From the NCBI RefSeq assembly GCF_020524625.1, contig NZ_JAIVLL010000003.1, positions 1-64,000 of the forward strand: 64,000 nucleotides of DNA, in the 5' to 3' direction. Position numbers and translations under genes: made by a program. Positions 2,202-47,480 of this stretch are shown piece by piece (position 1 is the stretch's first letter; every line of letters starts with the position of its first letter). The stretch is from Brevundimonas poindexterae (GTDB lineage Bacteria > Pseudomonadota > Alphaproteobacteria > Caulobacterales > Caulobacteraceae). The notes below the pieces were generated by a model. The model had not been told where the DNA came from, did not search any database, and saw nothing but the letters and a program-made list of their open reading frames with translations.

Positions 2202-3806
2202 ATGTTCCGTCGCCTTCTGGGTGGTGTCGCCGCCGCCGCCGTTCTCCTGTCCGCGGGCGCCGTCGCCGCGCAGGACATCTCGGCCCAGCGCCTGTCCGAC
2301 CACATCCGCGTGCTGGCCGACGACAGCTTCCAGGGCCGCGTCCCCGGCGAGGTTGGCGAGAAGCTGACCCTCGACTATCTCCAGGCCCAGTACGAGGCCA
2401 TGGGCCTGCAGCCGGGTGGCCCGGACGGTCAGTGGCTCCAGCCCGTGACCCTCTATCGCTTCACGCCCGCCCGTGACGCGGTCGCCAGCTGGACCGGCCC
2501 CGATGGGGTCAGCCATGCCCTGACCGGCGCCGACCTGCAGCTGCGCTCCTCGAACGACAGCGGTCGGGTCGAGATCAGCGACGCCCCGGTCGTCTTCGCC
2601 GGCTATGGCATCACGGCGCCTGAGCGCGGCTGGGACGACTATGGCGACGTCGATGTGACCGGCAAGGTCGTCATCGTGCTGGCCGGGGAGCCCGAGGGCG
2701 AGCTGTTCCGGGGCGAGTACAACTCGGCCTATTCCAGCAGCGGCTACAAGAAGATGGAGGCTCTTCGCCGCGGTGCCGTGGGCGTCATTACGCTCGAGCT
2801 GGACCCCGCCATGTGGCAGCGGATCGCCGCCCGCCCGGCCCGCACCCGCACCACGACCCAGGGCCTCGACCCCATCCCGTTCACGGGCACTGTCGGTCCG
2901 CAGACGGCCATGGCGTGGGGCACGGCCGCCGGCGTCGATCACGGCGCGATGGCAACCGTCGATACCGGTCGCTTCAAGGCGGTCGAGCTGACCGGCGTGC
3001 GCCTCAACGTCGACATCGAGGAAGCCCGTGAAGAGATCCACACCTACAATCTGCTGGCCAAGATCGAGGGCTCCGAGCGCCCGGATGAGGTCGTGATCTT
3101 CTCGGCCCACTGGGACCACGTCGGCGTGGCCGCCCCCGACGCGCACGGCGACACCGTCTTCAACGGCGCCTGGGACAATGCCTCGGGCACCTCCGGCATT
3201 CTCGAGCTGGCGCGCGCCTTCTCGGTTTCGCCCCAGCCCGAGCGTACCGTGGTCTTCGCCCATATGGCGGCCGAGGAAATGGGCCTGCTGGGCGCCTGGG
3301 CCTATTCGGTCAACCCGGTCTATCCGCTGGAGACGACCGTGGCCGACCTGAACATCGACATGCTGCCGCTCAGCGGTCCGACGCGCGACTTCGCCATCTT
3401 CGGCAAGGGCCAGAACACGCTGGAAGACGACCTCGCCGTCCTCGCCGAGGCCGAGGGCCGCTATGTCACCGACGACCGCGAGCCGGAGCAGAACTACTAT
3501 TTCCGCTCCGACCACTTCCCCTTCGCCCGCTCGGGCGTGCCGGCCCTGATGCCCTGGCACGGCGTTGATCTGGACGAGGGCGGGATCGAGGTCGGCCTGC
3601 CGGAATATCAGGCCCTGTTCTCGCGCGACTATCACAAGCGCAGCGACGAATGGCGTGAGGATTACGACCTGCGCTCGGCGGTCGAGAACCTGACCCTGAT
3701 GTACCGCCTCGCCTGGGACCTGGCCAACTCGGACCGCTGGCCGACGTGGAAGGCGGACTCAGAGTTCGTCGCCACCCGCGCCCGCTCCGACGCGGCTCGC
3801 CAATAG
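2202..3806 (+). CDS. M28 family metallopeptidase, secreted paralogue
   Basis: A 534-residue second M28 peptidase. The ATG at 2202 follows GGGAG and opens a Sec signal peptide ending AVAAQD; unlike its neighbour there is no lipobox Cys, so the product should be soluble in the periplasm or exported. It repeats the architecture of the upstream gene: N-terminal RLSDHIRVLADDSFQGR region, PA-like insert with VFAGYGITAPE, then HWDH, DNASG, AAEEMGLLGAW and FRSDHF zinc-site motifs. The two enzymes share domain order but differ clearly in sequence, so the duplication is not recent. Its last 48 bp overlap the 3' end of the convergent homoserine dehydrogenase gene, leaving no room for a separate terminator. 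Confidence 0.9.
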   Translation: MFRRLLGGVAAAAVLLSAGAVAAQDISAQRLSDHIRVLADDSFQGRVPGEVGEKLTLDYLQAQYEAMGLQPGGPDGQWLQPVTLYRFTPARDAVASWTGPDGVSHALTGADLQLRSSNDSGRVEISDAPVVFAGYGITAPERGWDDYGDVDVTGKVVIVLAGEPEGELFRGEYNSAYSSSGYKKMEALRRGAVGVITLELDPAMWQRIAARPARTRTTTQGLDPIPFTGTVGPQTAMAWGTAAGVDHGAMATVDTGRFKAVELTGVRLNVDIEEAREEIHTYNLLAKIEGSERPDEVVIFSAHWDHVGVAAPDAHGDTVFNGAWDNASGTSGILELARAFSVSPQPERTVVFAHMAAEEMGLLGAWAYSVNPVYPLETTVADLNIDMLPLSGPTRDFAIFGKGQNTLEDDLAVLAEAEGRYVTDDREPEQNYYFRSDHFPFARSGVPALMPWHGVDLDEGGIEVGLPEYQALFSRDYHKRSDEWREDYDLRSAVENLTLMYRLAWDLANSDRWPTWKADSEFVATRARSDAARQ

Positions 3807-40608: not shown

Positions 40609-40626
40609 TCTGAATGGTCTGAATTC

Positions 40627-40780
40627 CATTCCTCCCCCATCGGGGGAGGGGAACCATCCGAAGGATGGTGGAGGGGGCGGATGTCATCAGAGGCACGGGC
40701 CCTTCTCGCGAATGGCGGCTCTGCCCCCACCACCCCGGCGCAGAGCGCCGCGGTCCCCCTCCCCCGGTGGGGGAGGAATG
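40627..40780. repeat. Palindromic element, copy A
   Basis: Two arms in inverted orientation: 40627-40679 and 40723-40780. Outer arms pair over CATTCCTCCCCC and GGGGGAGG; each arm also holds its own smaller hairpin (ACCATCC/GGATGGT in the left, GCGC-rich in the right). It closely matches copy B at 47001-47140 and shares design with the element inside ileS. No open frame of its own with coding bias. Confidence 0.85.
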
Positions 40781-41320
40781 GTCGCGGATGCGCGGAAGCG
40801 CCTCTCGCCCGAAGGGCAGAGGTTGGAGGGCAGGCGGAGCGCCGGGCCTTCGCCCGGAGTGACTAGAGTTTACCGTTTCGACGAAGGCTGACGCTCCGCG
40901 CGGTGGTTTTCCGGAAGCTTGCGTCGGGTGGCCGTGTTCGGGCCTTACCGCAGCGCCTCCGACGGGCGGGCGGGGCCTGCGCCCCGTCCCGGAACGGCCG
41001 AGTATCCCCCTCGACCCTTACCCCGATCCCACACCCGGAGGCGGAGATCGAGGGTGCATGAAGGTGGGCCTAACGCTCGGCTCGCGGAGCCTCGCTGCTT
41101 GAGGCCCGAAAGCCGGGTGTTGGCGTCCTCCAACCCCGCTCCATCGCTCCCGCCGCTCACAAGGTCGCAGGCCTTACGAGCCCTCCGTGCGACGGGACGG
41201 GGGAAGGTTTGCACAGACCCGGGCTGAGGCGGGGAAGTCGGGTCGGGAAACCGTCGCAGCGTTGAAAGGGCGGGGGAATTCGGGGGCGGCTGTGATGGCT
41301 GGGGGCATCGGGTCAGCGAT
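40781..41320. other. Gene-free GC-rich stretch with inverted repeats
   Basis: No gene with proper codon bias or a recognisable product is seen on either strand. The stretch holds several hairpins, for example CCTCTCGCCC-GAA-GGGCAGAGG near 40800 and GGGGC-CTGC-GCCCC near 40975, and open frames there look like by-products of high GC. It may be a decayed repeat or an untranslated structured region. Confidence 0.5.
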
Positions 41321-41351: not shown

Positions 41352-44300
41352 TCAGCCCTTCTGCGCGTCCAGCCAGCGGACGGCGTCGGCGTCGCGGGCG
41401 CTGAGGTCGGGGTAGTCGGGGTCGGAGCCGACGTCCGGCACGCGGCGCCAGGAGCGGGCACATTTGGGGTGGTCGGCGGTGTCGATGCGGGCAGTGACCG
41501 TATCGCCGCTGGCCGACAGTTCGGCGCCCGAGGTGCGGAACACCTCGGCGGCATCCAGGCCGTCGAAGGCGGCCATCAGATCGGCGGGCAGGGTGACCGT
41601 GGGCCAGGCATCGAGGGCGCCGCCGATGACCTTGTCGCGGCGGGCGGCTTCGAGGGCTTCATTGACGGTTTCCAGCACGGTCCAGACCTTGTCCCAGCGC
41701 GCGGCCTCGGCGTCGTTCTGCCATTCGGCCGGGGTGTCGGGGATCACGCGGGCGCAGTTGGTGCCGGCCCCATCATCGCTCTGGGGGGGATAGCGGGTGG
41801 TCCAGGCCTCTTCCATGGTGAAGGGGGTGAGGGGGGCCAGCCAGGCGGTCAGGCGCAGGAAGACCTCGTGCATGACGGTGCGGGCGGCGCGCCGGCGGAT
41901 CGCATCGGGGCGGTCGCAGTAGAGGCTGTCCTTGCGGACGTCGAAATAGAGGGCCGACAGGTCGCCCGAGCAGAATTCCAGCACCGGACGGATCACGTCC
42001 TGGAAGTCATAGGTCTCATAGGCCTGACGGACCTGGCCATCCAGCTGCCACAGGCGGTGCAGGATGAAGCGCTCGAGCGGCGGCATCTGGTCCAGCGGCA
42101 GGCGCTCGGCCTCGTCGAAACCGGCCAGTGCGCCCAGCAGATAGCGCACGGTGTTGCGCAGCTTGCGATAGGCTTCGACCGTGGTCTGCAGGATCTGTTT
42201 GCCGATGCGCTGGTCCTCGGCATAGTCGACCAGGGCCACCCACAGACGCAGGATGTCGGCGCCCGACTCCTTGATGACGGTCGCCGGGTCGACGGTGTTG
42301 CCCAGCGACTTGGACATCTTCTTGCCCTGCTCGTCCTGGGTGAAGCCGTGCGTCAGGACGGCCTTGTAGGGCGCGCGACCGCGGGTGCCGCAGCCTTCCA
42401 GCAGGTTGGACTGGAACCAGCCGCGGTGCTGGTCGGAGCCTTCCAGATAGAGGTCGGCGGGCCAGTGCGAGGGGCGGTCGCCGTCATAGCCGTGCTCGGG
42501 CGTGCGGGGCTCGAGCGTGAAGGCGTGGGTGCAGCCCGAGTCGAACCAGACATCGAGGATGTCGGTGACCTTTTCGTACTGGGCCGGGTCGTGGACGCCG
42601 AGGAAGTCGGCATCCGGCGTCTCGAACCAGGCATCGGCGCCGCCCTCGCGGATGGCGGTGAGGATGCGGGCGTCGACCGCGTCGTCGTGCAGCGGCTGGC
42701 CGGTGTGCTTGTCAACGAACATGGCGAGCGGCGTGCCCCAGGCGCGCTGGCGGCTGATCAGCCAGTCGGGGCGGTCCTCGACCATGGAGCGGATGCGGTT
42801 CTTGCCCGCCGCCGGGTGGAAGGTGGTGGCGTCGATGGCCGCAAGCGCCAGTTCCCTCAACGTCCTCCCTTCCCCCTCGATGGGGGAAGGGCCGGGGTTG
42901 GGGGTGGAGGAAGGCGTCAAGTTTTCCGACCGGGAGGCGCCTTCCGTGCTCCATGACGAGATGGCGGCGTCTTCACCCCCATCCCAACCCTTCCCCCATC
43001 GAGGGGGAAGGGCCTTGTCGAGTCGGATGAACCACTGGGGGGTGTTGCGGAAGATGATGGGCGCCTTCGAGCGCCAGCTGTGCGGATAGGAGTGCTCCAT
43101 CCGGCCGCGCGCCAGCAGATTGCCGGCCTCGATCAGCTTTTCGGTGACGACCTTGTTGGCGGCGCCGAACTTGCCGATCTTGTCCTTCTTGCCCTCGGTC
43201 TCCAGCACCTTGAGCCCGGCGAACAGGGGCACGTGCGGATAGTAGGCGCCGTTGGCGTCGACCGTCTCGGGCACTTCCTTGTGGCCGTGGGCCTTCCACA
43301 CCTCATAGTCGTCGGCCCCGTGGCCGGGGGCGGTGTGGACGAAGCCGGTGCCGGCGTCGTCGGTGACGTGGTCGCCCGCCAGCAGGGGCACGGCAAAGCC
43401 ATAGCCGGGATCCAGCTCGGCCAAGGGATGGGCGCACTCCAGCCCCGAGGGATTGATGTCGCCGAGGCGGGTAAAGGTGGCGATCTTCGCGGCCTTGAAG
43501 ACCTCTTCCGCCAGCTTGTCGGCCAGGATCAGCCGGTCGCCCGGCTTGGCCCAGGGCTCGAACTCCAGCCCCTCTTCCATGGCGGTGACCTCATAGACGC
43601 CATAGGCGATCTCGGGGCCGTAGCTGATGGCGCGGTTGGCCGGGATGGTCCAGGGCGTGGTCGTCCAGATGACGATGGCGGGGGTGGAATGGCGGAAGGC
43701 CAGCAGGTCGTCGTCGTGGTCGTCGGTGGCACCGGTGACCGGGAACTTCACCCAGATCGTGGGCGAGACATGGTCGTGGTATTCGATCTCGGCCTCGGCC
43801 AGGGCGGTGCGCTCGACCGGCGACCACATGACGGGCTTGGAGCCGCGATACAGCTGGCCCGAATTCTTGAACTTGTGGAACTCGGCGACGATGGCGGCCT
43901 CGGTGCCGTAGTCCATGGTGGCGTAGCGGTTGGCCCAGTCGGCGGTGACGCCGAGGCGCTTGAACTGCTCGCGCTGGACGTCGATCCAGCCCTCGGCATA
44001 GGTGCGGCAGGCGGCGCGGAATTCGGCCTTGGAGACCTCGTCCTTGCGGCGGCCTTTCGCGCGGAACTGTTCCTCGATCTTCCACTCGATCGGCAGGCCG
44101 TGGCAGTCCCAGCCGGGGACGTAGTCGACGTCATAGCCCAGCAGGAAGCGCGACCGGACCACGAAGTCCTTGAGCGTCTTGTTCAGCGCGTGGCCGATGT
44201 GGATGTCGCCGTTGGCGTAGGGCGGGCCGTCGTGAAGGACGTAGAGGGGGGCGTTCTGCGACTGACGCTCGGCGCGCAGGCGGGCGTAGAGGTCGCCCCA

Positions 44301-44435
44301 GGCCTCGAGGATCTCGGGCTCCTTCTTCGGCAGGCCGCCGCGCATGGGGAAGGGCGTCTCGGGCAGGAAGACGGTGTCGCGATAGTCGCGGGCGGTCGAA
44401 GCGGTGTCGCCAGAATTATTGCCGGTGTCGGCCAT
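41352..44435 (-). CDS. ileS: Isoleucyl-tRNA synthetase with in-frame repeat insertion
   Basis: A 1027-residue class I synthetase, longer than the roughly 940-980 usual for the group. HIGH is in GDIHIGHALNK near 77; the CP1 editing domain has WTTTPWTIPANRAISYG and the GTGFVHTAPGHGADDY segment; KMSKS is in GKKMSKSLGN near 706; an anticodon-binding domain follows. The zinc-finger C-terminus of some IleRS is not obvious; the end is PDLSARDADAVRWLDAQKG. Between NTPQWFIRLDK and TLRELALAAID lies an extra stretch of about 48 residues (475-522), Gly/Pro/Ser-rich, encoded by a palindromic element (separate entry). In E. coli IleRS the two flanks are nearly joined. Active-site motifs are intact, so the enzyme should work. 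Confidence 0.96.
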   Translation of the reverse strand: MADTGNNSGDTASTARDYRDTVFLPETPFPMRGGLPKKEPEILEAWGDLYARLRAERQSQNAPLYVLHDGPPYANGDIHIGHALNKTLKDFVVRSRFLLGYDVDYVPGWDCHGLPIEWKIEEQFRAKGRRKDEVSKAEFRAACRTYAEGWIDVQREQFKRLGVTADWANRYATMDYGTEAAIVAEFHKFKNSGQLYRGSKPVMWSPVERTALAEAEIEYHDHVSPTIWVKFPVTGATDDHDDDLLAFRHSTPAIVIWTTTPWTIPANRAISYGPEIAYGVYEVTAMEEGLEFEPWAKPGDRLILADKLAEEVFKAAKIATFTRLGDINPSGLECAHPLAELDPGYGFAVPLLAGDHVTDDAGTGFVHTAPGHGADDYEVWKAHGHKEVPETVDANGAYYPHVPLFAGLKVLETEGKKDKIGKFGAANKVVTEKLIEAGNLLARGRMEHSYPHSWRSKAPIIFRNTPQWFIRLDKALPPRWGKGWDGGEDAAISSWSTEGASRSENLTPSSTPNPGPSPIEGEGRTLRELALAAIDATTFHPAAGKNRIRSMVEDRPDWLISRQRAWGTPLAMFVDKHTGQPLHDDAVDARILTAIREGGADAWFETPDADFLGVHDPAQYEKVTDILDVWFDSGCTHAFTLEPRTPEHGYDGDRPSHWPADLYLEGSDQHRGWFQSNLLEGCGTRGRAPYKAVLTHGFTQDEQGKKMSKSLGNTVDPATVIKESGADILRLWVALVDYAEDQRIGKQILQTTVEAYRKLRNTVRYLLGALAGFDEAERLPLDQMPPLERFILHRLWQLDGQVRQAYETYDFQDVIRPVLEFCSGDLSALYFDVRKDSLYCDRPDAIRRRAARTVMHEVFLRLTAWLAPLTPFTMEEAWTTRYPPQSDDGAGTNCARVIPDTPAEWQNDAEAARWDKVWTVLETVNEALEAARRDKVIGGALDAWPTVTLPADLMAAFDGLDAAEVFRTSGAELSASGDTVTARIDTADHPKCARSWRRVPDVGSDPDYPDLSARDADAVRWLDAQKG
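42868..43011. repeat. Palindromic element inserted in frame in ileS
   Basis: Inverted arms at 42868-42907 and 42974-43011 share CCTTCCCCCTCGATGGGGGA and continue with GGTTGGG(GA)TGGGGGTG-type bases; each arm has its own small hairpin (CCCCTCGATGGGG). Total about 144 bp, a multiple of three, translated on the minus strand as part of IleRS without stops (PRWGKGWDGGED at one arm, PNPGPSPIEGEG at the other). Same architecture as copies A and B, with diverged sequence. Confidence 0.85.
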
Positions 44436-47000: not shown

Positions 47001-47140
47001 CATTCCTCCCCCATCGGGGGAGGGGGACCATCCGAAGGATGGGGGAGGGGGCCAGCCATGGATCGGGGCATTGAAGTCAGCGCTGCCCCCACCACCCCAG
47101 CGCTACGCGCTGCGGTCCCCCTCCCCCGGTGGGGGAGGAT
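47001..47140. repeat. Palindromic element, copy B
   Basis: Arms 47001-47051 and 47085-47140 are inverted copies with the same inner hairpins as copy A (ACCATCCGAAGGATGG on the left; GCGCTACGCGC on the right). Nearly identical to copy A over both arms. The right arm forms the end and stop of the DUF559 gene. Confidence 0.88.
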
Positions 47141-47480
47141 TTGTGAGGTCGCGGAGGGCGGCGAGGACGCCGTCCAGATTGGTCAGTACATCGCGGGCCG
47201 GAACTCGCCAGACCCGGATCCCCTGCGCCGTCAGCCACTCGGTGCGGCGGGCGTCGTGGCGGATCTGATCTGGATGGTCGTGGGTCTGGCCGTCGACCTC
47301 GACTGCCAGCCGGGCGTCTTCGCACCAGAAGTCGAGGACGAAGGGGCCCATCGGGTGCTGCCGCCGAAATCGCGCCCCCTGCTGTTGTCCACGTATCGCC
47401 TGCCAGAGAATGACCTCCGGCAAGGTCATTCGGCGTCGGAGCGAGCGGGCCCGCGCCACCGTGGTCCTGGGTGGATGCAT
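47103..47480 (-). CDS. DUF559 (Vsr-fold) nuclease-like protein
   Basis: A 125-residue DUF559 protein. It shows ARSLRRRMTLPEVILWQAIRG, GARFRRQHPMGPFVLDFWCED, LAVEVDGQTH (acidic residues of the PD-(D/E)xK core) and WLTAQGIRVWRVPARDVLTNLDGVL. The last dozen codons and the TAG stop lie inside palindromic element copy B, giving a NPPPPGEGDRSA tail, which suggests the element inserted into or evolved with the 3' end. The start is uncertain for lack of a ribosome site; ATG 47480 gives the normal domain length. Activity on DNA is unproven. Confidence 0.78.
   Translation of the reverse strand: MHPPRTTVARARSLRRRMTLPEVILWQAIRGQQQGARFRRQHPMGPFVLDFWCEDARLAVEVDGQTHDHPDQIRHDARRTEWLTAQGIRVWRVPARDVLTNLDGVLAALRDLTNPPPPGEGDRSA

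Follow-up and report, generated by a model that had tools for sequence, protein, structure and literature searches.

Palindromic elements inserted in frame in proteins of Brevundimonas poindexterae share arm families with genes of a putative DUF559 homing-type nuclease

To our knowledge, no enzyme has been linked to the movement of the palindromic repeats found in many bacterial genomes. A number of palindromic systems have been described. The RPE of Rickettsia are palindromes of ~105-146 bp that occur in intergenic DNA and also, in frame, within conserved proteins (PMC2229807, PMC10969869). REPs have already been reported inside genes of free-living bacteria, tRNA synthetases included, and the CGTC REPs, which are frequent in alphaproteobacteria, "apparently lack a dedicated transposase" (PMC3733652). 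In REPINs, two inverted palindromic units with a spacer form the mobile unit (PMC3116915), and the CIR of Caulobacter and relatives are ~110 bp long and consist of two arms and a linker (PMC2229807).

The window analysed here is a stretch of 64,000 nucleotides of B. poindexterae (contig NZ_JAIVLL010000003.1, positions 1 to 64,000). A first-pass annotation, made from the letters of the window, had claimed that a palindrome of ~144 bp lies in frame in ileS. This was confirmed at 42868-43011, and the features concerned are the following.

41352..44435, minus strand: ileS, isoleucyl-tRNA synthetase, 1027 aa, intact ORF containing the insert (ORF; Pfam PF00133 and PF08264; relatives)
42868..43011, minus strand: family B two-arm palindromic element, in frame in ileS, net gain 132 nt (inverted repeat; empty site in 39/39 relatives; fold z -8.1)
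42867..42903, no strand assigned: ileS insert arm on the low-coordinate side, the 3' arm in the ileS sense (37 nt, 89% complementary to the other arm)
42976..43012, no strand assigned: ileS insert arm on the high-coordinate side, the 5' arm in the ileS sense (37 nt; exact 23-nt core)

The ileS ORF matches the tRNA-synt_1 and Anticodon_1 families of Pfam. The two inverted 37-nt arms of the insert are 89% complementary and separated by 72 nt, and each arm is a hairpin by itself. The 23-nt arm core is exact on both sides and was found in 0 of 100 shuffles of the window. Folded as a single strand, the insert is much more stable than shuffled versions of it (z = -8.1). Stops are absent from the ileS reading frame across the whole 144 nt, and the insert is translated as approximately PPRWGKGWDGGEDAAISSWSTEGASRSENLTPSSTPNPGPSPIEGEG, placed between RLDKAL and TLRELAL. 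The expected gain of ~48 residues held as to its being in frame but not as to its size: when the site is compared with that of the closest relatives, G016 and G004, the net increase amounts to 132 nt (44 codons) and not 144 nt, because the insert took the place of ~12 nt of older coding sequence. In the solved bacterial IleRS structure 8c9e, residues 415 and 418 align with the two flanks of the insert, and the loop is therefore nearly closed in that IleRS. A structural model of IleRS with the insert was uninformative (mean pLDDT 39) because the underlying alignment of 21 near relatives was too shallow. A comparison with RNA families returned only two mir-629 matches, one per hairpin strand, at 29.7 and 29.5 bits against a cut-off of 72, and these were taken as chance.

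Absence of the insert from relatives had been set as a test beforehand. The ileS site was read in 29 + 20 genomes (39 distinct), and the insert was missing in all 39. IleRS itself was matched in 101/101 genomes, and the two-part matches of the listed relatives break between residues ~476 and 522. In the closest genome, G016, the ileS flanks are 96-98% identical on either side, and the insert is absent. The ileS insert is a lineage-specific insertion. An old lineage-specific loop of IleRS that is palindromic by chance is ruled out by the 39 empty relatives, G016 among them, and by the matching arms elsewhere in the genome, and we give that reading practically no weight.

Arms of the ileS type were looked for beyond ileS and were found at three further places. 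With at most 3 mismatches, there are 8 sites in four places of the genome. Two of these places are ileS and an E2 gene, the third is a unit with a gene at C4:107.9 kb, and the fourth is a copy that appears to lie between genes. The broader core TCCCCC-N0..7-GGGGGA occurs at 38 sites in the 2.7-Mb genome, compared with 3 for the reversed pattern, and visual grouping of these 38 sites gave 24 places. Among the arms, two families are prominent. Family B (CCCTTCCCCC..GGGGGAAGGG) is the ileS type, and its arms also surround a DUF559 gene at C4:108000; family A (TCCTCCCCC..GGGGGAGGGGGACC) has a second hairpin. Two further copies previously noted in the window are real and share the layout of the ileS insert, but they carry arms of family A, not of the ileS-type family B.

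40626..40781 (approx.), no strand assigned: family A two-arm element between genes (inverted pair I18, 30 nt, 93% complementary)
47001..47144 (approx.), no strand assigned: family A two-arm element adjoining a DUF559 gene (direct-repeat families D5 and D8)

The window also contains a 188-nt direct repeat (1343-1530 and 3034-3221, 71% identity) with similarly spaced neighbouring repeats, which probably represents tandem paralogous genes.

Each of the 13 elements tested leaves 3-5 of the 6 frames open, so that little is needed for survival in frame. As this openness follows from composition, stop-free frames were rejected as a sign of selection. The ends and motifs of 13 elements bear on whether a RAYT transposase could have moved the ileS insert as a REPIN. 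Its layout of two inverted palindromic units and a spacer is REPIN-like (cf. PMC3116915), but this origin is very improbable, as the GTAG/CTAC tag was absent near the ends of 13/13 elements and a search for RAYT (PF01797) that was positive in 5 of 14 control genomes gave 0 matches in this genome. CGTC or GACG lies near an end in 5/13 elements, which may be chance. The GANTC of CIR was found in 0/13.

In-frame entry into other genes was also looked for, and was found in E2, SufS and a phage capsid protein. At least 5 of the 24 places lie in frame within supported proteins (IleRS, E2 with two, SufS and the capsid protein); long ORFs across other elements were accepted only where Pfam or relatives backed them, and were otherwise regarded as shadow ORFs. 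The lipoyl-bearing E2 (PF00198, PF00364) contains two palindromic insertions, situated in Ala/Pro linkers (L060, G000:C2:398800-403400, ~2001-2600). In an alignment of E2 with 9 relatives, these inserts are also present in G016, and the E2 linkers of G015, G010, G004 and G012 contain, as judged by eye, their own palindrome-type peptides (the G026 row is incomplete). The E2 linkers of other species seem to gather palindromic insertions of their own. The SufS insert lies at the N-terminus of a class-V aminotransferase (PF00266), named SufS here, and could escape translation given a later start. At the SufS junction, this genome and G004 carry different inserts at the same point, and no insert is present in G016 and G060. 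An HK97-like phage capsid gene (PF05065; L067, G000:C2:79000-82400, ~1663-1720) contains half of a family A element in frame; the half element is apparently common to G016 and G004, both of which align through it. The view of the ileS insert as a protein-invading repeat in a free-living alphaproteobacterium was supported in part by these cases. As in-frame palindromes in free-living bacteria have already been published for intragenic REPs (PMC3733652), however, in-frame entry here is a further case of a known phenomenon.

Pairs of occupied and empty sites were compared for the anatomy of insertion. Neither a target-site duplication nor a shared target was seen by eye in these pairs, and the target beside the arms was replaced or mutated. 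At ileS there are 5 and 10 mismatches relative to G016 in the 20 nt on either side of the insert, against ~0.6 per 20 nt further out, and the protein is mostly preserved across the mismatched flanks. Over 10 comparisons of 6 insertions, identity rose from 0.60 at 0-10 nt from the arm to 0.94 at 60-200 nt and was 0.93 beyond, and part of the fall near the arms may be unalignable filler. Units bearing a DUF559 gene are also absent at corresponding sites. One unit, between two genes named glyQ and glyS here, is absent in G004 and G060, and another, at C6:75.8 kb, is absent in the same two genomes and reduced to its left arm in G016. At L075, this genome has a DUF559 unit, and G016 and G004 have a different one. 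Close relatives were seen to hold different elements at the same chromosomal spot, be it two DUF559 units (L075 vs L134 and L152) or a gene-less element and a DUF559 unit (L069 vs L136), which looks as if sites are reused or elements replaced. The close pairs at ileS, sufS and glyQ-glyS are ready material for probing the chemistry of insertion.

Two places with wider-set arms enclose an ORF, which a PF04480 match identifies as DUF559. There are 7 DUF559 (PF04480) genes in this genome, one of them inside the window. The annotation had overlooked the window gene, which adjoins one of the copies there, as well as the DUF559 genes that these arm families enclose in other parts of the genome.

47154..47459, minus strand: DUF559 nuclease domain; the ORF runs on into the arm of the neighbouring element (PF04480 E 7.5e-28; translated ORF, L076)

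All 7 adjoin palindromic arms. Three (L074, L077, L079) pass an exact 13-nt enclosure test. The remaining four were assessed by eye: L073, L076 and L078 each adjoin a complete element, and L075 is surrounded by other arms. The DUF559 ORFs of L074, L077 and the window (47154-47459) continue into the 3' arm, giving the protein a palindrome-encoded tail rich in Pro, Ser and Gly. In families A and B, gene-less copies share their ends with DUF559-bearing copies of the same genome, in the manner of MITEs and their gene-bearing partners, as seen in this genome only. The enclosure of DUF559 genes by the same arm families is the new part of the finding; no paper linking DUF559 to palindromic repeats was found in a literature search whose reach excluded preprints and most subscription journals.

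Enclosure was scored by taking the 250 nt on each side of the DUF559 domain and finding the longest exact inverted match shared by the two sides, with a pass at 13 nt or more. Loci of the order and class were the best-scoring matches, one per genome, and the GTDB-wide loci were the best 80 of 559; the enclosed fractions therefore describe well-conserved DUF559 genes. In this genome and its order, 22 of 34 loci were enclosed (3 cut loci dropped), compared with 0.66% of 1065 shifted windows. The corresponding figures were 10/25 against 0/780 in the class (5 cut loci dropped) and 47/76 against 14/3125 GTDB-wide (best 80 of 559, 4 dropped, N runs masked). The test was failed by 12/34, 15/25 and 29/76 loci (the last from the best 80 of 559), respectively. 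A C/G-run core was present in 43 of the 47 enclosed GTDB-wide loci (best 80 of 559) and in 0/14 control matches, and the arms stand at a median of 66 nt before and 40 nt after the domain in the same set. The longest true arm GTDB-wide (best 80 of 559) is a 73-nt exact inverted pair around the DUF559 domain of Legionella anisa (L291, flanks of 1501-1800). Loci of ParE, a small and often mobile gene used as a control, gave 0/28 at 12 nt or more and 2/28 at 11 nt (2 cut loci dropped). Arms of one locus matched those of another at 13 nt or more in 12.5% of cases in the order and 4.8% in the class. This cross-locus control is high because arms of different loci resemble each other; specificity of the arms for each nuclease is therefore not proven, and the shifted windows and ParE were relied on as controls.

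Counts of DUF559 genes and of arm cores were correlated over 101 genomes (Spearman 0.58; the genomes are not independent, and the core is one of several arm types), with values of 0.51 outside the genus (n=40) and 0.45 within it (n=61). The median number of arm cores was 1.5 in the 18 genomes without DUF559 and 15 in the 83 with it. Arm cores without DUF559 occurred in G079 (20), G025 (11) and G013 (9), the last two being incomplete genomes, and DUF559 without this arm core in G063, G066 and G094.

The invariant residues of DUF559 are E, D, ExD, H and D. The DUF559 profile matches 3hrl (E 2.5e-35) and 3r3p (E 5e-5), the latter annotated as 'Mobile intron protein' (I-Bth0305I). An AF2 model (pLDDT 90) gave TM scores of 0.75 to both 3hrl and 3r3p and 0.69 to Vsr (1cw0). 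DUF559 is thus similar to the homing nuclease I-Bth0305I by sequence as well as by predicted fold, and it is predicted to cut DNA. VsrA, a DUF559 protein of C. crescentus, is reported to be required for the SOS response of cells without the ScmA methylase (PMC12907096), and segments with a transposase and DUF559 were hotspots of mutation and recombination in a Legionella evolution experiment (PMC12308824). DUF559 genes are also reported to rise in D. radiodurans without N4-cytosine methylation (PMC6712171) and in C. crescentus without a cytosine methylase (PMC12907096). This rise in both methylation-deficient bacteria points to a possible tie between DNA methylation and DUF559 nucleases.

In our view, the ileS insert is probably non-autonomous: it would be a copy of a mobile palindromic element that, in its fuller form, carries a DUF559 nuclease gene between like inverted arms. 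The nuclease is predicted to cut DNA and would thereby allow the element to spread to new sites. The support in hand comprises dispersed stop-poor two-arm palindromes, their presence or absence between close relatives, their entry into IleRS, SufS and E2, the occurrence of both arm families around DUF559 genes of this genome, and recurrent arm-DUF559-arm units in other bacteria. From these sequence data we infer that DUF559 mobilises the elements. In such a mechanism, the Vsr/EDxHD-like nuclease would recognise the hairpin arms, as a cruciform or a single strand, in the donor or the target, and would nick or break DNA at arms or targets. Repair with error-prone filling would then copy the element into the broken site, and gene-less copies such as the ileS insert would use DUF559 in trans. 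Next to the arms, 10-40 nt of the target would be replaced or mutated, perhaps through error-prone SOS repair. Insertions in loops and linkers could survive as extra peptide rich in Pro, Gly and Ser, because the GC-rich arms leave 3-5 of 6 frames open.

The main alternative is that the palindromes are mobile via other machinery, such as a transposase acting in trans or template switching in replication, and that DUF559 is cargo or a hitch-hiker. We regard this as possible but less likely. In its favour, PF01797 and PF04480 occur together in the control genome of Caulobacter vibrioides; against it, PF01797 was not found in the present genome. Many DUF559 loci have no detectable arms, some genomes have arms without DUF559, and solo arms exist, as in G016 at the L065 site, all of which would suit a passive DUF559; yet a mere passenger accords less well with ParE, which is likewise small and often mobile and has no such arms (0/28 at 12 nt or more), with the GTDB-wide recurrence of the arm-gene-arm spacing (medians 66 and 40 nt, best 80 of 559) and with the homing-nuclease kinship of the enzyme.

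Beyond this genome, the elements may belong to a bacteria-wide class of selfish palindromic elements with a Vsr/EDxHD-type homing nuclease (DUF559) between inverted hairpin arms, a proposal for and against which we see the balance as even. Many C/G-run palindromes, in proteobacteria and outside them, would be gene-less copies of this class, entering protein genes in frame (IleRS, SufS, E2) and leaving a mutated halo at each insertion; the class would be a counterpart of REPIN-RAYT with an unrelated enzyme. If DUF559 does move such repeats, a widespread family without an assigned function gains a role and a common type of repeat gains an engine. In-frame palindromes would then also be a testable route for new peptide loops into essential enzymes.

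Comparison with known systems places the element as follows. Like the RPE of Rickettsia, the ileS-type element is a palindrome of ~100-150 bp in frame in protein genes. The initial assignment to the Rickettsia type stands in this respect, but it holds as an analogy only: the host group is another, and DUF559-bearing copies exist here, whereas the accessible parts of the RPE sources mention no nuclease gene. The intragenic REPs of the GTAG and CGTC families are also palindromic repeats within ORFs of free-living bacteria; the elements described here differ in being longer two-arm units. CIR likewise consist of two arms joined by a linker. They are set apart by their description, with GANTC, absent from genes and full of stops, whereas the present elements have 3-5 open frames (13/13) and in-gene copies. 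Conserved acidic and His residues and the predicted fold of DUF559 are also those of the EDxHD homing endonuclease I-Bth0305I and of Vsr. I-Bth0305I, however, is described as having extra DNA-binding regions (PMC3943268) and lies in an intron, whereas DUF559 is one short domain without such regions and lies between palindromic arms. By analogy, the element would work like RPE and like REPIN-RAYT. With the latter it shares an inverted palindromic pair and a candidate enzyme gene beside or between the arms; the enzyme here is a Vsr/EDxHD-like nuclease (DUF559), whereas RAYT is a tyrosine transposase.
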